A stretch of DNA of 8,864 nucleotides from Candidatus Mcinerneyibacteriota bacterium (lineage in GTDB: Bacteria; AUK180; JAQVHJ01). The position numbers and the translations under genes were made by a program. Each line of letters starts with the position of its first letter. The stretch's first letter is position 1. A model generated the notes under the pieces. That model saw nothing but the letters and a program-made list of their open reading frames with translations. It had not been told where the DNA came from and did no database searches. Shown one piece after another: positions 241-8,769 of the stretch. Where the stretch lies: positions 1-8,864 of the forward strand of contig DAOVMD010000099.1 in assembly GCA_030630935.1 (NCBI GenBank), written 5' to 3'.

Positions 241-319
241 TTTCGCTTGACGTAAGCTAGATCTTGCTTCGCTGCGATGCGCTCCACAAATAAGAATGAA
301 TAATGAATAATGAAGAATT
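241..319 (+). repeat. TTCGC/CTCCACAA segment followed by GAATAAT heptads
   Basis: A locally GC-richer stretch (241-290) has TTTCGCTTG, GCTTCGCTGCGATGCGC and ends in CTCCACAA. Related text occurs at 6650-6668 (TTTCGCTTCGCTCCACAA) and 6691-6707. It is followed by period-7 repeats of GAATAAT/GAAGAAT (about 297-319). The reverse complement of that heptad stretch is found at 1943-1979. In the window this block sits between the octamer array and the 65-bp module, an order repeated near 6650-6811. Confidence 0.55.
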
Positions 320-320
320 A

Positions 321-385
321 TTTGCATTAATGATTTCACTGCTTTGGTTTAGAGCGATATTTCCTATTGTAAACTTTTTAATTAC
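321..385 (+). repeat. 65-bp intergenic module, copy 1
   Basis: Three conserved blocks: TTTGCATTA (321-329), TTTAGAGCGATA (348-359) and TAAACTTTTTAATTA (starting at 370). Block starts are 27 and 22 bases apart, exactly as in the copies at 6747 and 8628. Against copy 2 I count roughly 52 of 66 matching bases. No ORF runs through it. It could be a non-coding RNA, a protein-binding element or the core of a small mobile repeat; the sequence alone does not decide. Confidence 0.65.
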
Positions 386-445
386 TGTTAAAATCTATTC
401 ATTTTTTATATATTTATACACCTTCGAGTTATTTAAAAATTTCCC

Positions 446-474
446 TTGATTAATTGTAGAAATTAATATATAAT
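446..474 (+). promoter_or_regulatory. Sigma-70-type promoter of the nuclease gene
   Basis: TTGATT (446-451) and a perfect TATAAT (469-474) are separated by 17 bp. Transcription would start near 481, leaving a leader of about 16 nt. An AAGGAG ribosome binding site (486-491) sits 5 nt before the ATG at 497. No operator is evident. Confidence 0.75.
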
Positions 475-496
475 TAAAATTAAATAAGGAGATAAT

Positions 497-1333
497 ATGA
501 AGGTAATATCTGTAAGTGATAGATTTTCATCACATCCTGAAGAGAAGGTTATTACAATTTCCCGGGTAAGTTCTGCAAATTGTCCATTTAGTTATTTTAA
601 GAGTTATATCGAAAAACCAAAGCCAAAACCTCCTTTTGAGACAATTGAAATTGGGATAGGTTCATTCTTTCATTCGTATGTTGAAAATATATTTAAGATT
701 ATTTCCAGTGAAGATAGGTCAATTGCAGATTCTGACATTATTGATATTGATGAACTGGTTTCAGATTTTAAATTAGCATTTATCTGGGATAGTAAATTAA
801 TAAAACCTTATAAGATTATTAAGAATAATACAAACATCGAATATTATATCACCAGGTTGATTGGTTTTGGGAAAAACTTTAATAAATTCCTTAAGAATAG
901 CCTTGTGAATCATACAGTCTTTGATGTCGAAGGAGACCTTGAGATAGAAACAGAGAAGTATATAATCAGAGGGAAATATGACCTGACGACAAAGAACCCA
1001 AATGGTGATTTAATTCTATGGGATTGGAAAACAGGCCAGGCACCAAATCCAAGGTATATAAAAGATTTAAAAGTTAAAAAGCTTCAACTTGGAATCTATG
1101 CGATCTGGATGGCGCATAAATATCCTGAGAATAAAATTAGAGGAACCGTAGTTTTTTTAAGAGGTGAGTTAGCCCAATTAACAGAAGTCTTTAGTGAATC
1201 AATCGAGCAGGAAGTTTTAACTTACTTATTTAAATGGCGTGAGAAGATTAATAAGTTAGAGAAATATATTCCTATGAAGAGTGGTTTATGTCCATGGTGC
1301 GCCTGGAAATCTACTTGCCCTGCATGGAAATAG
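497..1333 (+). CDS. PD-(D/E)XK nuclease, Cas4/RecB-like, with predicted 4Fe-4S cluster
   Basis: A 278-residue predicted DNA nuclease of the Cas4/RecB-like PD-(D/E)XK group. Seen in sequence: His59 in GSFFHSYVE, Asp162 in RGKYDLT (motif II), Asp176-x-Lys178 in LWDWKTG (motif III) and the Q197-x3-Y201 element in LQLGIYA. Cys29 lies near the N-terminus, and Cys265, Cys268 and Cys274 form a C-x2-C-x5-C pattern at the C-terminus. In Cas4 and AddB-type proteins this 1+3 cysteine arrangement binds a 4Fe-4S cluster that staples the fold. Those families act as exonucleases on DNA ends, so a role in DNA repair or processing is inferred. No helicase, Cas1/Cas2 or CRISPR array is in the window, so I do not call it Cas4 proper. 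The start is set by AAGGAG 5 nt upstream. The gene has its own promoter and faces the met operon tail to tail. Confidence 0.85.
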   Translation: MKVISVSDRFSSHPEEKVITISRVSSANCPFSYFKSYIEKPKPKPPFETIEIGIGSFFHSYVENIFKIISSEDRSIADSDIIDIDELVSDFKLAFIWDSKLIKPYKIIKNNTNIEYYITRLIGFGKNFNKFLKNSLVNHTVFDVEGDLEIETEKYIIRGKYDLTTKNPNGDLILWDWKTGQAPNPRYIKDLKVKKLQLGIYAIWMAHKYPENKIRGTVVFLRGELAQLTEVFSESIEQEVLTYLFKWREKINKLEKYIPMKSGLCPWCAWKSTCPAWK

Positions 1334-1343
1334 CTTCGGTGTC

Positions 1344-1390
1344 GAGAGCAGAGAGCAGATAGCAGAGAACAGTCGTTTTGTAGATTGCAG
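1344..1390 (+). repeat. Heptad array element, copy without the hairpin
   Basis: Four in-phase heptads: GAGAGCA (1344-1350), GAGAGCA (1351-1357), GATAGCA (1358-1364), GAGAACA (1365-1371), followed by GTCGTTTTGTAGATTGCAG. The tail matches the copies at 5280-5353 (reverse) and 8792-8864. The CAAGCAAC hairpin seen in those copies is missing. It begins about ten bases after the nuclease stop codon, so it would be part of that transcript. Confidence 0.65.
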
Positions 1391-1393
1391 TAG

Positions 1394-1412
1394 GGGTTAA
1401 CGACGTTAACCC
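1394..1412 (+). terminator. Perfect hairpin, possible transcript end of the nuclease gene
   Basis: GGGTTAACG (1394-1402) and CGTTAACCC (1404-1412) are perfect 9-base arms about one central base, 60 nt after the nuclease stop. The following bases (TGACCAAAAG) hold no T-run, so intrinsic termination is doubtful. A processing or mRNA-end-stabilising structure is as likely. Confidence 0.4.
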
Positions 1413-1495
1413 TGACCAAAAGAATTTATACACCCATCGGATATTATGAATAAAAATATAAATATTAAAAGAAAAACTTTTTCTCTTCTTTATTT

Positions 1496-1530
1496 TCATC
1501 CCGTCAATCCCGTACATCCCTGTTAAAATC
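1496..1530 (+). repeat. CATCCCGTC nonamer repeat, copy 1
   Basis: Period-9 units CATCCCGTC (1498-1506), AATCCCGTA (1507-1515) and CATCCCTGT (1516-1524), followed by TAAAATC. The same block with varied bases is at 6970-7005 and 8770-8789, always preceded by TTTT. I recall similar ATCCNGT runs in spacers of unrelated bacteria, but cannot check this here. Confidence 0.6.
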
Positions 1531-1557
1531 TTTTTTGTATTCAATCGAATTCTTAAG

Positions 1558-1643
1558 GGGGTAAAACCCCATTGTTATGGCTAATTATAATACTTTTCAA
1601 AGTACTAACCTTCAGTCAGAAATCAGAAAGGGTGCTTGCACCC
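1558..1643. repeat. Three consecutive short hairpins in the convergent spacer
   Basis: GGGG/CCCC around TAAAA (1558-1570), TACTTT/AAAGTA around TC (1591-1604) and GGGTGC/GCACCC around TT (1630-1643). All arms are perfect and the sequences are unrelated. They lie between two convergent genes and could stop or protect transcripts from either side; no clear U-tract follows on either strand. Confidence 0.4.
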
Positions 1644-2015
1644 CAGTTTGACCTTGACCCTGATTGAAGACAATAGCATTAAAAGTTTTAAACAATTATA
1701 AACAATATAAGTAAGCCAATTATAAGTCTTGTTAAAGTCACTGTTAAATATTTTTTCTCTTTTGTTTGTTTTTTTGCGGTGTGGTCAGTGTGATCAGTGG
1801 TTTTTTTTCTTTCTTTTTTTGCTTTTATTTTTTCTTTTGTTTTTTAGTTCTCTTAAGTTCTCGTTAGTTCACTGTTAATATTGTTTTTGCATTCAATTAT
1901 TCCTTTAAGCAACTCTAGTTTTCAAAAAAAGCAACATAATAATTAATGCAAAACATTATTCATTCTTCATTATTCATTGTTACTTTTTCATTGCAGAGCG
2001 AAGCAGTCGCTTCAC
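1644..2015. other. Gene-free spacer: T-rich tracts and repeat fragments
   Basis: No ORF with a ribosome binding site is seen. Recognisable parts are: a period-9 pair GTGTGGTCA/GTGTGATCA (1779-1796), whose opening GCGGTGTG also occurs at 6900-6906; long T-rich stretches (1747-1775 and 1800-1846); an AGTTCTC-type array (1848-1872) whose reverse complement lies at about 5420-5440; and reversed GAATAAT heptads next to ATGCAAAA (1943-1979). Close to the metE stop, GCGAAGCAGTCGCTTC (1998-2013) can form a 5-bp hairpin, but no T-run follows in the metE direction. Confidence 0.55.
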
Positions 2016-4169
2016 TTATTTATTCTCACGTAATTTATAGGCAAGTGAAACCATATTCTTTAAAGATGGAATGACTTCTTCCCATTTCCTGGTTTTTAAT
2101 CCACAATCAGGATTTATCCAGATGTTTTCATATGGGATTTTGACCTTTACTTTTTTAATTGTATCTTCCATCTGTTCAATATCGGGAATCATAGGGGAAT
2201 GAATATCCCAAACACCAATCCCAATCTGCCTTTTAAAATTATCAGGAAAATCAGTAACAATTCCACCAGAATTCCTTGAAGCTTCAATTGAAATCACATC
2301 AAAATTCATTTTCAAGATTTCATTAATTATCTCATCAAATTTTGAATAACACATATGTGTATGAATTTGAGTTTCAGGTTTTGTATTTGTTGCGAGATTA
2401 AATGAATTAACAGCCCAGGAAAAATAATCAGACCACTTTGATTTCTTGATTGGTGCTTTCTCTCTAATTGCAGGCTCATCAATTTGAACTATTTTTATCC
2501 CGGCATTTTCAAGTTCTTTAATCTCATCTAAAATTACTAATCCTAATTGATACGCAATGTTTTTAATGGGGATATCTTTCCTCTCAAAGCTCCATGCAAT
2601 AATTGTGACCGGACCAGTCAGCATTCCTTTCACTGGTTTCTCAGTAAGGGTCTGAGCAAATTTGATCTCTTTTAATGTCATGTTCCCTTTTCTGGAAATA
2701 TCTCCAAAGATAATTGGTGGTCTATATACTCGTGAACCAAAAGAAATTATCCAACCATGATCAGTAGTTGCGATTCCATTTAGTTTTTCTGCAAAAAACT
2801 CAACCATATCCGACCTTTCAAATTCACCGTGGACAAATACATCAAGATTTAATTCTTCTTGTTTTGAAATTAAATCTTTAATCTTACTTTTTACAAAATT
2901 ATCATAATCTTCTGAACTGATTTTATTCAGTTTAAATTTCCTTCTAATTTTACGGGCTTCCGAAGTTTGGGGGAAACTGCCAATTGTTGTAGTTGGGTAT
3001 TCGGGCAGGTTTAATCTTTCCTTCTGAAGTGTTTTTCTCTTAATTGAGTTTGTTGATTTATTGAAATCCTTCTCAGTTAGATTACTCACTCGTTCTTTTA
3101 CTTTTACATCAATTCCAAAGTCTGACTTGTGATTCCAAACTTCAATCTCTTTCCCGTTCACTTTCTTTAAAATTAAATTTAATTCTTTCAATCTTTCTTC
3201 AGCAAAAGCAATTTTATTAATTAAATTATTTTCAATATTCGATTCATTTTCAACTGAAATAGGAAGGTGAAATAAAGGCCCGGCATTTGAAATTATTATA
3301 TTTTTTTTAATTTTGCGTATGGAATTAATTTTTTCAACAACCTTATCAATTTCAGTTCTCCAGATATTAGTCCCGTCTACGCATCCGATTATAAGTTCTT
3401 TATCCTCCGGGAATCCATTTTTTAAAATCATATCAAGGTTTTTAGTTCCTTTAACAATATCAATTCCAATACCATCTACAGGTAAGTCATAGAGCTCGGT
3501 TAAAAAATCAATGTCTTCATAATAAGAGATTATATATAATTTCGAATTACCCTTGTTTTTTCCTAAGATTGAATATACTTCCTTTATAAGATTGATTTCA
3601 TCTGTGGAAAGCTCAAGAACAAAACTTGGTTCCTCGAGTATTACAGTTGAGAACATATCGAATAAGTTGGAATAAATATTTACAAGCTTCTTTAGGTTAA
3701 CACTGAAATTTGAAACGTTCTTTGAAAGTTTTAAAAATGTAAAAGGTCCGATTACAGAAACAGTATTATATTTCTTGAAATCACCAAAGATATCCGGATT
3801 GAATTTAAAATTAAATTCATCTTCATTTTGGAGATTAGGAACCAGGTAATGGTAATTTGTGTTAAACCATTTCTTCATTTCCAATGCTGAGCCCCCACGG
3901 CATAATTCAAAATAATTATCTAATGTTTCAGGGTTATAAACACCGGTCATGATTGCAGTATCAAAAAGGTAATCGTATTTCGAAATATCATTGAACGGGA
4001 AAATATCTATATCATAACTTTTATAAGTATTCGAGATATCCTTTTGTAAAATACTTAATCTTTCATTTAATTCCTGTTCGGTAATTATTTTCTTCCAATA
4101 CTTTTCAATTGAAGTCTTGTATTCTCTTTTTCTCCCTAACTTAGGAAACTTGAATGCTAAGGTTTTCAT
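2016..4169 (-). CDS. metE: Cobalamin-independent methionine synthase MetE
   Basis: Cytosolic zinc enzyme that transfers the methyl group of 5-methyltetrahydropteroyl-polyglutamate to homocysteine, giving methionine without B12. It has 717 residues, a little short of the usual ~750, but both barrels are present. N-terminal half: FPKLGRKREYK (8-18), KKWFNTNYHYLVP (99-111), GPFTFL (141-146), VDGTNIWR (264-271). C-terminal half: YPTTTIGSFPQT (391-402), MLTGPVTIIAWSF (516-528), VQIDEPAIRE (561-570). The zinc ligands are all there: His605 and Cys607 in HTHMCYS, Glu629 in ISIEAS, Cys689 in NPDCGLKTR; their spacing matches the E. coli enzyme within one residue. The canonical serine-rich segment before LLHVP reads SNAGPLFHLP (294-303), a divergence in the N-terminal barrel. 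AAAGGAG lies 8 nt before the ATG. It is the second gene of the operon, 19 nt after metF. Confidence 0.96.
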   Translation of the reverse strand: MKTLAFKFPKLGRKREYKTSIEKYWKKIITEQELNERLSILQKDISNTYKSYDIDIFPFNDISKYDYLFDTAIMTGVYNPETLDNYFELCRGGSALEMKKWFNTNYHYLVPNLQNEDEFNFKFNPDIFGDFKKYNTVSVIGPFTFLKLSKNVSNFSVNLKKLVNIYSNLFDMFSTVILEEPSFVLELSTDEINLIKEVYSILGKNKGNSKLYIISYYEDIDFLTELYDLPVDGIGIDIVKGTKNLDMILKNGFPEDKELIIGCVDGTNIWRTEIDKVVEKINSIRKIKKNIIISNAGPLFHLPISVENESNIENNLINKIAFAEERLKELNLILKKVNGKEIEVWNHKSDFGIDVKVKERVSNLTEKDFNKSTNSIKRKTLQKERLNLPEYPTTTIGSFPQTSEARKIRRKFKLNKISSEDYDNFVKSKIKDLISKQEELNLDVFVHGEFERSDMVEFFAEKLNGIATTDHGWIISFGSRVYRPPIIFGDISRKGNMTLKEIKFAQTLTEKPVKGMLTGPVTIIAWSFERKDIPIKNIAYQLGLVILDEIKELENAGIKIVQIDEPAIREKAPIKKSKWSDYFSWAVNSFNLATNTKPETQIHTHMCYSKFDEIINEILKMNFDVISIEASRNSGGIVTDFPDNFKRQIGIGVWDIHSPMIPDIEQMEDTIKKVKVKIPYENIWINPDCGLKTRKWEEVIPSLKNMVSLAYKLRENK

Positions 4170-4188
4170 TAATTATTCTCCTTTATGA

Positions 4189-5058
4189 TTATACGATATT
4201 AAGTGTTTTAATTATTTCCCTGATATATTTTACTTTATTCATTGTATATAAATGAATACCGCTATTATCAGGGATATTTTTTAATAGGTTATCCACTTGC
4301 TTGATTGAGAATTCCATTCCGGCTTTTTTAAAGTCTTCTCCTTCATAAGTGTCACGGATATGCTTCAAATTTTCCGGAATACTTGCTTTAGACAGGTGAA
4401 GGATTTTTTCAAGCAAACTTTTATCATAAACCGGCATGATACCCGGTATAATTTTCACATGATCTAACTTTCTCTTTTTTACTTGATCAATGAAATTAAA
4501 GAATTTTGAGTTATCGAAGAAAACTTGTGTAATGAAAAAAGATGCACCCGCATCAATCTTTTGTTCAAAGTAATCCATGTTCTTCTTTAAGTCAGGGCAT
4601 TCAGGATGACCTTCAGGATAAACTGCTGCTCCAATACAGAATCTACCATCATCTTTAATATACTTTATCAGGTCACGAGCATACTTGAAATCAGGTTTCC
4701 CCTTCTGTGCAGATTTAAAATCCGGAGAAATATCTCCCCTCAATGCAAGAATATTCCTGACTTCTGCAATGTATAAATCACTTAGAATTCTCTTAACTTC
4801 TTTTTTTGTATAACCTATTGCAGTTATATGTGAAAGAGCTCTGCTCCCTATAATCTTGATGTAATTTGCAATCTCAGTTGCATTCTTCTTATTGATTCCG
4901 CCAACTCCAAATGTTACACTGATGAAGTCAGGATGATATCTCTCAAGCTTTACAATCATCTTGAGAATTATCCTGAGACTCTTGTTCGTTGTACTTCTTG
5001 TCGGAAAAATTTCAAATGAAAGTGAGAAGTGTTTTTCTGCTAAAAGTTTCTGAATCAT
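4189..5058 (-). CDS. metF: 5,10-methylenetetrahydrofolate reductase MetF
   Basis: Flavoprotein that reduces 5,10-methylene-THF to 5-methyl-THF, the methyl donor for MetE encoded next in the operon. 289 residues from the ATG, the normal bacterial length. Family motifs in order: SFEIFPTR with Glu16 (catalytic Glu28 in E. coli), FISVTFGVGG (45-54), ILALRGD with Asp109 (the flavin-tuning Asp120 in E. coli), AAVYPEGHPE (144-153), ITQVFFD with Gln178 (folate-contacting Gln183 in E. coli), IIPGIMPV (203-210) and HLYTMNK near the end. The start is uncertain. AAAGGAG (5073-5079) is 14 nt from this ATG but only 2 nt from an in-frame TTG at 5070, which would add four residues. Both distances are poor; I prefer ATG because 2 nt is too close. 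The 5' leader is about 30 nt, too short for a SAM riboswitch. Confidence 0.95.
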   Translation of the reverse strand: MIQKLLAEKHFSLSFEIFPTRSTTNKSLRIILKMIVKLERYHPDFISVTFGVGGINKKNATEIANYIKIIGSRALSHITAIGYTKKEVKRILSDLYIAEVRNILALRGDISPDFKSAQKGKPDFKYARDLIKYIKDDGRFCIGAAVYPEGHPECPDLKKNMDYFEQKIDAGASFFITQVFFDNSKFFNFIDQVKKRKLDHVKIIPGIMPVYDKSLLEKILHLSKASIPENLKHIRDTYEGEDFKKAGMEFSIKQVDNLLKNIPDNSGIHLYTMNKVKYIREIIKTLNIV

Positions 5059-5094
5059 GAATCTTACCAAAGCTCCTTTTCTTTATTAAAAATT

Positions 5095-5123
5095 ATGATA
5101 TCAGATTTCGTTAATAAAGTCAA
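5095..5123 (-). promoter_or_regulatory. Sigma-70-type promoter of the metF-metE operon
   Basis: On the minus strand TTGACT (5118-5123) and TATCAT (5095-5100) are 17 bp apart. Start of transcription would be near 5088, giving a leader of about 30 nt that contains only the AAAGGAG site. No riboswitch or leader peptide fits in it. Any methionine control would have to act at the promoter itself, and I recognise no operator there. Confidence 0.75.
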
Positions 5124-5170
5124 GTTTTTTTATAACAGGGCTGGACGGAAAAAAACAAAGAATAAAAAAC

Positions 5171-5368
5171 TTGGGACATCCTGTAAATTGGATAAGTAAC
5201 ATTATTAATAAAATATTCTTTTATCTCCTGTTTCCAAAGAAATATGCCAATGAGATCAGAAGAATTATTTATTTCTTCTATCTACAATCGATAAAACGAC
5301 TGTTTTCTGTTCTCTGATATCTGTTCTCTGTTCAAGCAACAGCGTTTCTTGAACATGGGGTGTCCCAT
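5171..5368 (+). mobile_element. Element with GGGACA inverted ends, copy A (interrupted)
   Basis: Ends TTGGGACATCC (5171-5181) and GGGTGTCCCAT (5358-5368) are inverted repeats of each other. Between them the left interior (GTAAAT..., AGTAACA, ATTCTTTT, TTTCCA) matches the inverted copy B at 7056-7151, but copy A is about 100 bp longer because it contains the heptad-hairpin element at 5280-5353. Flanks outside the ends are shared with copy B too (AATAAAAAAC to the left; TAATCACTC, TTACGAAAGAAAAC to the right), so the transposed unit may be larger than the TIR-to-TIR span. There is no transposase gene; it looks non-autonomous or a remnant. The IS family is not recognised. Confidence 0.55.
5280..5353 (-). 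repeat. Heptad array plus CAAGCAAC hairpin, nested in element A
   Basis: Reads ATCTACAATC at the left, then in-phase heptads TTCTCTG (5310-5316), ATATCTG (5317-5323), TTCTCTG (5324-5330), then TTCAAGCAAC (5331-5340), AGC, GTTTCTTGAA (5344-5353), whose arms pair in 9 of 10 positions. It is the reverse complement of the copy at 8792-8864 over nearly its whole length. It lies inside an element whose other copy lacks it, so it appears to be an insertion. Confidence 0.65.
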
Positions 5369-5399
5369 TAATCACTCCTTACGAAAGAAAACAAAAAAC

Positions 5400-5470
5400 A
5401 AAAAAAATTAACAGGGAATATAAGAGAACTAACGAGAACTTAAAAAACAAACAAAAGAAAAATATTAACA
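5400..5470 (-). repeat. A-rich tract with GAGAACT-type repeats
   Basis: ATTAACAGGGAA, then AGAGAACTAACGAGAACTT (5423-5441) and AACAAACAAAAGAAAAATATTAACA. Its reverse complement resembles two stretches of the 1334-2015 spacer: 1738-1775 (TATTTTTTCTCTTTTGTTTG) and 1838-1880 (AGTTCTCTTAAGTTCTCG, then CACTGTTAATATT). No gene is seen. Confidence 0.5.
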
Positions 5471-5509
5471 TGGACTTGAACGAGACATGTAAGTAACTTA
5501 TTTATATCG

Positions 5510-5529
5510 TTTGCATTTGTTTAGAGCGA
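5510..5529 (+). repeat. Collapsed copy of the 65-bp module
   Basis: This site joins the first block of the module (TTTGCATT) directly to the second (TGTTTAGAGCGA). In the full copy at 6747 the two blocks are separated by a stretch bounded by two GCAT words. Deletion from one GCAT to the other would give this junction with one base difference. The third block is absent. Confidence 0.55.
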
Positions 5530-5540
5530 CTTATGCTTAA

Positions 5541-5767
5541 GGGAACTATTGAACTATCGTCACTCCCGCACATTTTAACGTTTTTTTAACTCTTGAACTA
5601 TTGAACCATAGACGTGCCGTGGCACGTCTCTACAATAACACTTAAACACATGCAAAGCATACCTTGAACACTTGCACATTTGAATTCTTGAATCTTGAAC
5701 GCATGCGAAGTATGCATTGTTAACATTTGAACACTTTAACACTTTAACACTTGAACTTTTCAATAGT
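5541..5767 (-). repeat. Octamer array in reverse orientation with embedded hairpins
   Basis: Reverse-strand counterpart of the array at 105-240. Units on the + strand: TTAACTCT (5586-5593), TGAACTAT (5594-5601), TGAACCAT (5602-5609); TGAACACT (5665-5672), TGCACATT (5673-5680), TGAATTCT (5681-5688); then six units in perfect phase from 5720 to 5767 (TTAACATT, TGAACACT, TTAACACT, TTAACACT, TGAACTTT, TCAATAGT). Interspersed are hairpins GCATGC/GTATGC (5701-5715) and ATGC/GCAT (5650-5660), themselves variants of one CATGCRAAG-type word. A minus-strand ORF over this stretch is only a translation of the repeats. The array abuts the lipoprotein promoter. Confidence 0.75.
5610..5629. repeat. 20-bp near-perfect palindrome AGACGTGCC/GGCACGTCT
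   Basis: Arms AGACGTGCC (5610-5618) and GGCACGTCT (5621-5629) pair perfectly around GT. It is markedly more GC-rich than its surroundings and is followed by CTACAA. It interrupts the octamer array. I recall near-identical GACGTGCC palindromes in spacers of several unrelated bacteria, which would suit a small mobile repeat, but this is from memory only. Confidence 0.6.
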
Positions 5768-5769
5768 TC

Positions 5770-5798
5770 TTGACATTTATTTCTATTCATTGTATAAT
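5770..5798 (+). promoter_or_regulatory. Full-consensus sigma-70 promoter of the lipoprotein gene
   Basis: TTGACA (5770-5775) and TATAAT (5793-5798), both perfect, with a 17-bp spacer. The start would lie near 5805, leaving a leader of about 17 nt that is mostly the AAAGGAG site (5811-5817), 4 nt before the ATG. The -35 box is inside the next in-phase unit (5768-5775) of the octamer array. Confidence 0.85.
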
Positions 5799-5821
5799 TA
5801 AATAAATAACAAAGGAGTTAT

Positions 5822-6508
5822 ATGAAAATAATATTAAATAAAAACGTTATTATCATTTTTATGATAATTCTTTTATTATCATTAGTTGCGTGTAATAATA
5901 ACCACTCAAAAAAAGTTATATTTACAGATATCGTTCTTGATGATATTGCATGGGATGGAGAGCATCTTTGGGGTGTTAATATGGAGAAATCCAGGTTAGT
6001 TAAATTAGATATAAACACAAGTGAGATATTATTTAATACTGAGCTTCCCATTAAGTGTCCTCAAAGTATTTGTTATTCTGACGATTACTTTTGGATAACA
6101 ACATGTTTAGGTGAGATTGTAAAGGTGAGTGAATTAGGTGAGTATTTAGAAACTACTAAAATTCCCGGATTAAGTATTGGAAGTGCAGATATTAAAGGGA
6201 TTGTGTTTGCAAAGGGAAAACTTTTTATTCTGAACGGTTATAATATTCTTGAATTGGATAGAGATACTTATGAGATTATTAATAAATTCGAATTCCCAAG
6301 AAGAATTTATAGTGGTTTGAGTTTTAATGGTGAGGAGTTAGTATTATTAAATTCAATTGGGAAATTAATGTTTATAAATCTTGAATATGGTTATGTGTCG
6401 GTTGAAAAGAAAATTGAAAAGTCCGGGATTCCCATTGGGATTACCTGGGATGGTGAAAAGTTTCTTATCCCGATTTATTCAAAGAAGAGAATTATAATAG
6501 TTAAATAA
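5822..6508 (+). CDS. Predicted lipoprotein with five beta-propeller-like repeats
   Basis: 228 residues. A lysine-containing N-terminus, a hydrophobic stretch (9-22) and a lipobox LVAC with Cys24 followed by NNN predict a signal-peptidase-II-processed, lipid-anchored exported protein. The mature part has five repeats about 41 residues apart: DIAWDGEHLWGVN (41-53), ICYSDDYFWITT (83-94), GIVFAKGKLFILN (126-138), GLSFNGEELVLLN (165-177) and GITWDGEKFLIPI (206-218). Each pairs a WDG-like turn with a following strand and a K-L-D or L-E-L-D-like strand, as in small beta-propellers such as glutaminyl cyclotransferase- or NHL-like folds. Five blades would be a short propeller. No catalytic motif is recognised and the substrate or partner is unknown. 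The gene stands alone behind a consensus promoter, between inverted copies of the GGGACA-ended element. Confidence 0.8.
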   Translation: MKIILNKNVIIIFMIILLLSLVACNNNHSKKVIFTDIVLDDIAWDGEHLWGVNMEKSRLVKLDINTSEILFNTELPIKCPQSICYSDDYFWITTCLGEIVKVSELGEYLETTKIPGLSIGSADIKGIVFAKGKLFILNGYNILELDRDTYEIINKFEFPRRIYSGLSFNGEELVLLNSIGKLMFINLEYGYVSVEKKIEKSGIPIGITWDGEKFLIPIYSKKRIIIVK

Positions 6509-6554
6509 GGTAGTGTGAAAAGTAATATGAAAGAATATTAAAAGTAAAACTACC
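6509..6554 (+). terminator. Weak nested stem after the lipoprotein gene
   Basis: GGTAGT (6509-6514) can pair with ACTACC (6549-6554), and inside it TAATAT (6523-6528) pairs with ATATTA (6535-6540). It begins right after the stop codon. The stems are short and no T-run follows, so a terminator role is only possible. Confidence 0.25.
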
Positions 6555-6641
6555 CCAAAAGTATATATATTAAGAAGTTCTTTTCTTACTTATGCAGTTT
6601 CGGAAGTTCATTTATAAGATGATTTAATATGAATCAGTTCT

Positions 6642-6707
6642 TTGACATAGTTTCGCTTCGCTCCACAATAAAGAGTTCAAATGTTATTGTTTCGCATCGC
6701 TACACAT
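6642..6707 (+). repeat. TTCGC/CTCCACAA segment, second occurrence
   Basis: TTTGACATAG, then TTTCGCTTCGCTCCACAA (6651-6668), AGAGTTCAA (octamer-like) and TTTCGCATCGCTACACA. It parallels 241-290 and again precedes the 65-bp module. TTGACA at 6642-6647 looks like a -35 box, but no good -10 follows at the right distance, so I do not call a promoter. Confidence 0.5.
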
Positions 6708-6746
6708 TTGAGATTTATGGTTGGTAATTATTAATTGATAATTGTT

Positions 6747-6811
6747 TTTGCATTACATATTATACTGCATCTGTTTAGAGCGATAGTTCTTGGTGTAAAC
6801 TTTTTGATTAT
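6747..6811 (+). repeat. 65-bp intergenic module, copy 2
   Basis: TTTGCATTA (6747-6755), TTTAGAGCGATA (6774-6785), TAAACTTTTTGATTA (from 6796). The 27- and 22-base offsets equal those of copies 1 and 3. It is preceded by AATTATTAATTGATAATT, a stretch resembling the lead-in of copy 3. Confidence 0.65.
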
Positions 6812-6840
6812 TCTTAATTATCAAATGAATACAAAATTTT

Positions 6841-6896
6841 TTCTGTTCTCTGTTCTCTGATATCTGCTCTCTGTTCAAGCAACATAGTTGCTTGAG
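6841..6896 (-). repeat. Heptad array plus CAAGCAAC hairpin, third copy
   Basis: TTCTGTTCTCTG repeats, ATATCTG and CTCTCTG heptads lead into TCAAGCAAC (6875-6883), ATA, GTTGCTTGA (6887-6895), a perfect 9-bp stem with a 3-base loop. The far end (ACAATC block of the other copies) is weak or lost here. Confidence 0.65.
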
Positions 6897-6921
6897 AATG
6901 CGGTGTGTTCAGTGTGGAGTT

Positions 6922-6959
6922 TACCCCGAATTCACTTCGGGGTAGTTATTCTTTTTTTT
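6922..6959 (+). terminator. Strong hairpin followed by T-run
   Basis: TACCCCGAA (6922-6930) and TTCGGGGTA (6936-6944) form a perfect 9-bp stem with a 5-base loop, followed by GTTATTC and eight Ts (6952-6959). This is the best rho-independent terminator shape in the window, although the T-run starts seven bases after the stem. It is about 410 nt beyond the lipoprotein stop, so that transcript would have a long repeat-filled 3' end. Confidence 0.5.
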
Positions 6960-6969
6960 GTTTTTTCTT

Positions 6970-7005
6970 TTCATCCCATACATCCCGTCCATCCCTGTTA
7001 AAATT
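6970..7005 (+). repeat. CATCCCGTC nonamer repeat, copy 2
   Basis: Units CATCCCATA (6972-6980), CATCCCGTC (6981-6989), CATCCCTGT (6990-6998), then TAAAATTG. Both the last unit and the TAAAAT tail are as in copy 1 at 1496-1530. T-rich DNA follows to about 7040. Confidence 0.6.
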
Positions 7006-7055
7006 GTTTTTCTTTTTTTGTTTTGTTTTTGTTTTCTTTCGTAATGAGTGATTAA

Positions 7056-7151
7056 TGGGACACCCTTGATGAATTTGGAAAACTCATTATTCTGGAAACA
7101 AAAGAATGTTTTATAAATTGTGTTACTTTTTCCTATTTACAGGATGTCCCA
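7056..7151 (-). mobile_element. Element with GGGACA inverted ends, copy B (short form)
   Basis: TGGGACACCC (7056-7065) and GGATGTCCCA (7142-7151) are inverted ends of a 96-bp unit. Its reverse complement matches copy A at 5171-5368 over both ends, the GTAAAT...AGTAACA portion and the outer flanks (GAGTGATTAAT and CTTTCGTAA on one side, AAGTTTTTTATT on the other). It lacks the nested heptad-hairpin. No coding capacity; mobility is inferred only from the inverted ends and the two copies. Confidence 0.55.
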
Positions 7152-7173
7152 AGTTTTTTATTTTTTGTTTTTT

Positions 7174-7200
7174 TTCGTGTTTTTCATGTTTTCGTGGCTA
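7174..7200 (+). repeat. TTCGTGTTT nonamer repeat
   Basis: TTCGTGTTT (7174-7182), TTCATGTTT (7183-7191) and TCGTGGCTA (7192-7200) are period-9 units, with another TTCGTG at 7207-7212. It is the only place in the window where this word is seen. It lies just upstream of the amidohydrolase promoter. Confidence 0.45.
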
Positions 7201-7232
7201 AGAATCTTCGTGTAAAAAATTTTAGAAATCAT

Positions 7233-7261
7233 TTGACTTTTTAATCAAAGTGTTATAAAAT
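7233..7261 (+). promoter_or_regulatory. Sigma-70-type promoter of the amidohydrolase gene
   Basis: TTGACT (7233-7238) and TAAAAT (7256-7261) with a 17-bp spacer. The leader would be about 28 nt and contains AAGGAGGT (7285-7292), a near-perfect anti-16S match, 4 nt before the ATG at 7297. Confidence 0.7.
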
Positions 7262-7296
7262 GTAAATTAATTTACTAAATTACTAAGGAGGTAATT

Positions 7297-8526
7297 ATGT
7301 TAGCGATTATTAATGGGAAAATTCTAACTATTACAAAGGGAGTTATTGATAAAGGTACAATTATAATTGAAAAAGGCAGGATTGTTAAAATTGGTAAAGG
7401 AATTAAAGTTCCTAAGAAAGCTAAAGTAATTAATGCTAAGGGGAAAGTAATTATGCCCGGGATGATTGATGCACATTGTCACACTGGTATTTTTGCGGAT
7501 GGAGTAGGTTGGAAGGAATCTGACGGCAATGAAATGACAGACCCGATCACCCCGCAGCTGAGAGCAATTGATGCTATTCACCCGGAAGATATTGCATTCC
7601 AGGACTTGAGAGAAGCGGGTGTTACAACTATTAATACAGGTCCCGGTAGTGGAAATTTAATCGGGGGACAATTTGTCTGTATGAAAACTAAAAAAACTAA
7701 TTCAATTGAGAAAGTAATTATTAAACAACCATCTGCAATGAAGATGGCTCTTGGTGAGAATCCAAAAAGTGTTTATGGCGCGAATAAAAGAATGCCGTCC
7801 ACAAGAATGGGTAATGCTGCAGTCTTGAGGAATGCTCTTGTTGAAGCTGTTGAATACAATGAAAAATTAAAGAAGTTCAAAGACAGCAATAAAGAATATA
7901 AAAAGAAATTAAAAGACTGGGAAAAGAGTAAGAAGAAAAAGAAAGGTGATAAGCCCAAAGCACCGGAACCACCGGCAAGAAATTTAAAGCATGAAGCGTT
8001 AGTCCCGGTTATTGAGGGTAAGATGCGTGCAATGATTCATTGTCATCGTGCTGATGATATAATAACTGCTATTAGAATTGCTGAAGAATTTAAAATGTAC
8101 TTTTCAATTGAACATTGTACTGAAGGATTTAAAATTGCAGATATCCTCGCGAAGAAAAAAATCGCCTGTGTTGTTGGACCGATCTTTTTTTCAAGGTCAA
8201 AATATGAACTTCGTGAAATGACTCCTGAGAATCCTGCGATTCTAAGTAAAGCAGGTGTTAAAATTGCTATTCAGACTGATGAAATGTCAGCTGTAAAATA
8301 TATGCTCTTGAATGCAGGGGTCGCGGTTAAGTATGGTATGGATGAGAAAGAAGCACTAAAAGCAATTACTATTTATCCTGCTGAGATTATTGGAGTTGAA
8401 AAACGGGTCGGGAGTCTCGAGAAAGGAAAAGATGCTGATATTATTATATTGAGTGGAAATCCAATGGACTATAAAACTCGAGTCGAAATGGTTTTAATTG
8501 ACGGGGAAATTGAATATAAACGATAA
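7297..8526 (+). CDS. Metal-dependent amidohydrolase (imidazolonepropionase-like)
   Basis: 409 residues of the amidohydrolase superfamily, close to the imidazolonepropionase-like/metal-dependent hydrolase group. The N-terminal beta-sandwich (LAIINGKILTITKG... to KVINAKGKVIMPG, 2-55) leads into the barrel with the metal motif DAHCH (His60, His62). Further likely ligands or catalytic residues: His248/His250 in AMIHCHRADD, His273 in SIEHCTEG, Asp328 in IQTDEMS. The C-terminus returns to the sandwich with VGSLEKGKDADIIILSGNP (371-389). A lysine-rich segment (189-219), then KAPEPPARN, precedes the HCH strand; I recall similar charged inserts in relatives. The group hydrolyses amide or amine bonds of small molecules; the substrate is unknown here. 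No signal peptide, so cytosolic. The gene is single, with its own promoter and a strong ribosome binding site. Confidence 0.88.
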   Translation: MLAIINGKILTITKGVIDKGTIIIEKGRIVKIGKGIKVPKKAKVINAKGKVIMPGMIDAHCHTGIFADGVGWKESDGNEMTDPITPQLRAIDAIHPEDIAFQDLREAGVTTINTGPGSGNLIGGQFVCMKTKKTNSIEKVIIKQPSAMKMALGENPKSVYGANKRMPSTRMGNAAVLRNALVEAVEYNEKLKKFKDSNKEYKKKLKDWEKSKKKKKGDKPKAPEPPARNLKHEALVPVIEGKMRAMIHCHRADDIITAIRIAEEFKMYFSIEHCTEGFKIADILAKKKIACVVGPIFFSRSKYELREMTPENPAILSKAGVKIAIQTDEMSAVKYMLLNAGVAVKYGMDEKEALKAITIYPAEIIGVEKRVGSLEKGKDADIIILSGNPMDYKTRVEMVLIDGEIEYKR

Positions 8527-8530
8527 TGAG

Positions 8531-8581
8531 ATTAACTCTGTTAACCTTATTAAGCGCAGAGAGCAGAAAGCATCTCTGCTC
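8531..8581. repeat. Short hairpins and heptad fragment after the amidohydrolase gene
   Basis: TTAAC/GTTAA around TCT (8532-8544) recalls the GTTAAC hairpin at 1394-1412. GAGCAGA (8561-8567) and TCTGCTC (8575-8581) form a 7-bp stem built from heptad-like CAGAGAGCAG text. No T-run follows, so terminator activity is doubtful. Confidence 0.35.
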
Positions 8582-8627
8582 AAAATTTATGATTTATAAT
8601 TGATACTTGTTAATTGATAATTGAATA

Positions 8628-8691
8628 TTTGCATTATATATTACAATGCTTTTGTTTAAAACGATATTTCTTAACATAAACTTTTTAATTA
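8628..8691 (+). repeat. 65-bp intergenic module, copy 3
   Basis: TTTGCATTA (8628-8636), TTTAAAACGATA (8655-8666), TAAACTTTTTAATTA (from 8677). Offsets 27 and 22 as in the other two copies, although the middle block has two G-to-A differences. It is led in by TTAATTGATAATTG, as is copy 2. Confidence 0.65.
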
Positions 8692-8769
8692 TTTTTTCTA
8701 TAATATCATATTGTTTGTAATCATCTCACTTTTTGTAAACCTTCATAATGTTGATTTTATATTTTAGAT

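Follow-up and report, generated by a model that had tools for sequence, protein, structure and literature searches.

A rigidly spaced core module in a high-copy, modular intergenic repeat of two related bacterial genera

The window (the whole stretch of DNA analysed here, 8,864 nucleotides) forms contig 152 in an assembly of 3.16 Mb and 471 contigs, 80% complete (G000 in what follows), and it carries, besides a minus-strand metE gene, several pieces of one intergenic repeat (Table 1). In three copies of a 65-bp arrangement, TTTGCATTA starts at 321, 6747 and 8628, a middle block follows 27 nucleotides further on (348, 6774 and 8655) and TAAACTTTTTnATTA lies another 22 beyond it (370, 6796 and 8677). 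An earlier note on this DNA had claimed that both offsets are exact in these copies, and direct reading bears this out; the copies are also where it placed them, but one of its block spellings has to be changed, as copy 3 reads TTTAAAACGATA in the middle and not TTTAGAGCGATA. Forty-six of the 65 columns are identical across all three copies, and any two of them agree at 51-52 positions of 65, against 40 for the best 65-mer from 300 Markov-1 random windows. Two further pieces had escaped notice, a type B copy and a half copy with an alternative head. The minus-strand region 1344-2003 is itself a long composite, in which GCTTCGCTCTGCA, an AATGAA array, the type B copy, AACAGTGAACTAACGAGAAC, CCACTGATCACACTGACCAC and then another head succeed each other.

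Table 1. Parts of the repeat found in the window, with their positions and the basis of each assignment
Feature	Position	Strand	Basis
Copy 1, upstream module of 7-nt period, AATGAAGAATGA type	289-320	+	Sequence; many genome copies with the same slot
Copy 1, core (321-355) and type A tail (356-385)	321-385	+	R1 match 320-384, E 5e-16
Type B copy, TTTTGCATTA ... GTTGCTTAA ... GAATGCAAAAA, downstream of minus-strand metE	1884-1953	-	R1 match 1900-1953, E 2e-4
Alternative head AACATGGACTTGAACGAGACATG... fused to right half GTTTAGAGCGAC...GCTTAAGGGAAC...TTGAA	5467-5553	+	Like junctions in L007, L028 and L137
Copy 2, upstream module of another kind, TTATGATTGATAATTATTAATTGATAA type	6705-6746	+	Sequence
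Copy 2, core and type A tail	6747-6811	+	R1 match 6746-6811, E 6e-17, best of the genome
Copy 3, upstream module, TTAATTGATAA type	8585-8627	+	Sequence
Copy 3, core and type A tail, middle block TTTAAAACGATA	8628-8692	+	R1 match 8627-8692, E 8e-17

All three stretches represent one and the same module of a high-copy, non-coding, modular intergenic repeat of this bacterial family, and not a private set of three. A 39-bp core with at most 3 mismatches was found 53 times in G000, where the reversed pattern used as a control gave 0, and R1, a sequence-only profile built from 34 type A copies, gave at least 150 matches there, of which at least about 140 had E<1e-3. When the relatives were searched with the same profile, as the earlier note had advised for both parent genome and relatives, 8 weak matches appeared in G001, which belongs to a sister genus and is the one other genome of the family that the search covered, and at most one in each of the other 39 relatives. 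These 8 matches read ATAGCATTATAAATGNTGTTGCAGATGTTTAGAGCAATTGATGCTTAA...GGATGC and keep the 24-nt offset from GCATTA to TTTAGAGC that the G000 copies have, and they turned out to belong to a respelled family: a second profile, R2, made from an alignment (A2) of 25 type B copies, 9 of them from G001, produced at least 145 matches there with a best E of 5e-16, most of which had not been used in building it. All these copy counts are lower bounds, since the profile searches scored a limited number of candidates and both assemblies are incomplete. In the next family of the class, five genomes gave only 0-8 weak R2 matches each; those of G005 were considered as true copies and rejected as chance-like on inspection, and the genomes of that family are without the repeat. 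Horizontal spread was also considered, and rejected, as neither the viral contigs nor those belonging to 84,980 species contain the exact core pattern (a collection from which the window's own or a near genome was perhaps left out). Nor was the core found in the genomes that share the CGCAGAG module, one of which (G093) gave 3 weak matches at E>=0.24.

The two types differ in their tails. Type A, the form of the three window copies, has a TATTTCTTAATATAAACTTTTTAATTA tail, and type B a tail with TGATGCTTAA...GAATGC. The type B tail is probably ancestral and the type A tail derived in G000, since type B is the form common to both genera.

Copies of the repeat lie between genes. With ORFs called by a simple script, 0 of 134 copies in G000 overlap an ORF of at least 110 aa, and 2 of 92 copies in G001 overlap an ORF. 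They occur on both strands, so that the common strand of the three window copies, to which attention had been drawn, is a local accident. By the same ORF calls, the gene side is uneven in G000 (75 on the 3' side versus 34), where a left gene was called for 109 copies and 75 of these come after a gene on their own strand (p 1e-4), at a median of 94 nt past the stop; in G001 the corresponding figures are 19 versus 32, without the 3' bias of G000.

What is rigid in this element is less than the whole 65 bp. The offset from the start of TTTGCATTA to the start of TTTARARC is 27 nt in 35 of 36 copies and 28 in the remaining one, with spacers of 4-34 nt allowed in the search, whereas the second interval drifts by 1 nt, the distance from TTTARARC to the end of ATTAT being 37, 38 or 39 nt. 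The fixed spacing that had been claimed from three copies therefore holds for its first interval and not for the 22-nt one, and the rigid part is a 35-bp core, TTTGCATTANNNATTNNAATGCTTTTGTTTAGAGC, followed by alternative tails. Because a search pattern biases the conservation of what it retrieves, copies were picked on one half of the core and scored on the other half; even so, columns 12, 19-21, 28, 30 and 32 stay above 90%, and columns 9-11, 16, 25 and 35 are much freer. Such uneven conservation is constraint and not uniform decay, and on this point the earlier note was right: near-invariant and free columns stand next to each other, and the pattern survives cross-half selection.

In type B, one pair of positions varies in concert. 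Among 111 copies, the TRCTT...AATGYA pair is G-C in 62, A-T in 37, G-T in 6 and A-C in 3, and it covaries in A2 alone as well. A separate count by genome gave G-C 44, A-T 8, G-T 5 and A-C 1 in G000, and A-T 49, G-C 26 and G-T 1 in G001. This is the single covarying pair of type B, with no palindromic REP unit carrying compensatory changes, and it fits either two inverted half-sites or a small hairpin. The covariation may reflect few events, because both the A-T and the G-C states occur in both genera.

These observations bring to mind a chromosomal protein-binding site, nucleoid-associated or regulatory, that would be under selection and would have spread between genes as something useful, the repeats around it being incidental. 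The rigid spacing speaks for such a site, as do the near-invariant blocks that flank freely varying positions, and the TRCTT and AATGYA halves change together as the half-sites of a dimer would. However, long repeated flanks accompany the copies in slot order, G000 and G001 do not agree in orientation or in the bias towards one side of genes, and the coupling of the halves may come down to few independent changes, as said above. We think that this hypothesis, read from sequence patterns, is rather unlikely.

The position of so many G000 copies shortly after the stop of a same-strand gene, together with the one covarying pair, could also be explained by a structured RNA or a 3' UTR element working in transcripts. 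We consider this very unlikely. RNAalifold predicts 0 pairs in the type A alignment and 0 in the type B alignment, most single sequences fold no better than their shuffled versions, double changes are absent from the GCAUU/AAUGC helix, an Rfam search of the window at E<=1 gave no match, and the 3' bias is missing in G001. The option of a structured RNA that the earlier note had kept is accordingly not supported, and the look for covariation that it proposed brought out no multi-pair covarying helix. Two hairpins in the core were tried and set aside, GCTTT/AGAGC at the level of shuffles and GCATT/AATGC at z 2-4 above them; the latter excess comes from a few loop-side columns and related copies, and we did not count it as evidence. 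A coding relic was rejected too, with stops in most copies in every frame and no period-3 variability common to both genera. Downstream of the core, L012 and L020 have a hairpin with a compensatory change between two otherwise similar copies (CTCCCCGATTAGGGGAG versus CTCCTGTTTACAGGAG).

The core is one slot in a longer chain. Its left neighbour can be any of several modules, AATGAAGAATGA arrays and TTATTAATTGATAA blocks among them, and on its right it meets one of at least 7 tails. Most type B copies of both genera have a 7-nt-period module upstream, and downstream modules of the ACAGGGA, CGCAGAG, CATGAAG, CACTGA, CACGGAG or ATCCCGA type; the slot order common to G000 and G001 is thus a 7-nt-period array upstream, and ACAGGGA or 9-nt-period arrays downstream. 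A sample of G000 contains 1551 blocks of at least 70 bp (range 70-700 bp) shared between loci, with variable ends, and when blocks are compared with each other, mismatches outnumber gaps by about 13:1 and, in both genomes, are clustered. Variable-ended blocks and clustered mismatches fit shuffled repeats and not a single transposing unit with fixed ends. Duplication, which had been set aside in favour of a constrained site, needs to be brought back, some form of it being central to a very high-copy mosaic intergenic repeat, even if the absence of uniform decay stands. The 3'-side bias of G000, which shuffling of repeats leaves unexplained, may point to some role or to preferred insertion there.

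Strand-polar A-rich modules, variable junctions, substitution-rich copies, period-7 and period-9 arrays, and the presence of group II introns in G000 would all suit composites made by reverse transcription with template switching, that is, a bacterial SINE-like process stringing modules together. The present data do not separate template switching by a reverse transcriptase from shuffling at the DNA level, and we give this scenario only a very small probability. One may also imagine intergenic composites built by an unrecognised assembly process, in which the order of 7-nt-period array, spaced core, tail and 9-nt-period arrays is kept between genera, slot spelling is replaced and some fillers (CGCAGAGRACGCAGAG) are identical in unrelated bacteria; this seems to us doubtful.

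L155 and L160 have near-identical blocks of 440-550 bp, in which entire 9-nt units (TCCTCTGCG) are present in one and not in the other and a single segment has been replaced, and at about 2326 (+) of L130 two left halves of the core stand head to head as an inverted repeat. In L118 (1614-1704, minus strand) the 3' end of a group II intron (Rfam RF00029) abuts the core at ...CTCGAC|ATTATATATTA, and the same junction letters are present near the end of L036.

A further possibility is that a RAYT (Y1-type) transposase moves these sequences, which would then be REPIN/BIME elements, since copy number, extragenic location and mosaic make-up are like those of BIMEs (PMC2817692), and Y1_Tnp genes do exist in the two genomes (3 in G000 and 8 in G001). 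Yet the five genes examined among these 11 have neither a core nor a type B copy next to them, Y1_Tnp genes are equally present in members of the class without the repeat, and the unit has no clear hairpin palindrome. With no copies flanking these five genes and no co-distribution, we rejected RAYT/REPIN mobilisation as highly improbable, and we do not file the element as a REPIN or a BIME. At about 1050-1200 of L143 a Y1_Tnp gene ends in tandem ACAAAGATATCGCTCTTACAGAG-like units, as if a repeat had grown into its 3' end.

Taking this together, we think it reasonably probable that the family is a mosaic intergenic repeat of a BIME/BOX-like, non-autonomous kind, that recombination or template switching shuffles it, and that a putative DNA-recognising factor constrains its core. 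While the repeat family, its presence in two genera, the rigid core and the mosaic of slots are observed, mobility and this factor are what we infer. The repeats would spread as non-autonomous DNA, one copy may be shuffled with another through recombination, gene conversion or template switching, and the core would be kept because the factor, either mobilising or chromosomal, reads it in double- or single-stranded DNA. The G001 family could instead mean that functional sites have persisted by vertical descent.

The comparison with known systems is instructive in this respect. BIME, REP and REPIN sequences of Escherichia, Pseudomonas and Stenotrophomonas have more than 100 extragenic copies per genome and are mosaics of short motifs (PMC2817692, PMC3116915). 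The element described here resembles them in both respects, with its more than 100 extragenic copies per genome (at least 150 in G000 and at least 145 in G001) and its composite make-up of short motifs; it differs from them in that neither a REP hairpin nor, at the examined Y1 genes (5 of 11), a RAYT neighbour was found, and in a core that is a rigid 35-bp spaced module, one slot of a longer chain. In Streptococcus pneumoniae, BOX elements are modular intergenic repeats with optional modules, and are thought to be parasitic (PMC3049150). The modular units found here likewise come in a recurrent order, which is analogous while the sequences are different; RNA stem-loops are predicted for BOX, and RNAalifold found none here. 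BOX is also flanked by terminal inverted repeats and target duplications. As with MITEs, the element is short, non-coding, dispersed and AT-rich, but no fixed-end unit was seen, and terminal inverted repeats (TTTTGCATT...AATGCAAAA) occur only in type B of G000. Finally, the small dispersed repeats of cyanobacteria are very short, intergenic and nested in other repeats, and what we describe is similar to them in all three respects (a general likeness), in a different lineage.

A text search of a literature library for these sequences found no paper. Bacteria commonly carry short repeats between their genes, but the best-described families rely on a known transposase or form hairpins. Here each of two genera has about 140 copies or more, and neither feature has come to light. 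Its core keeps a rigid spacing and the order of slots outlasts changes of spelling, which makes the assembly and upkeep of a mosaic repeat testable within one small bacterial family.

The 9-nt modules that adjoin the repeat recur in unrelated bacteria. The 16-mer CGCAGAGRACGCAGAG, a slot filler beside the element, is spelled identically wherever it occurs among 116 genomes, 11 of which have it and several of these belong to unrelated families, with 37 copies in G066 and 11 in G054 (controls 0-1), and in the G066 loci that were read it often forms long inverted repeats.
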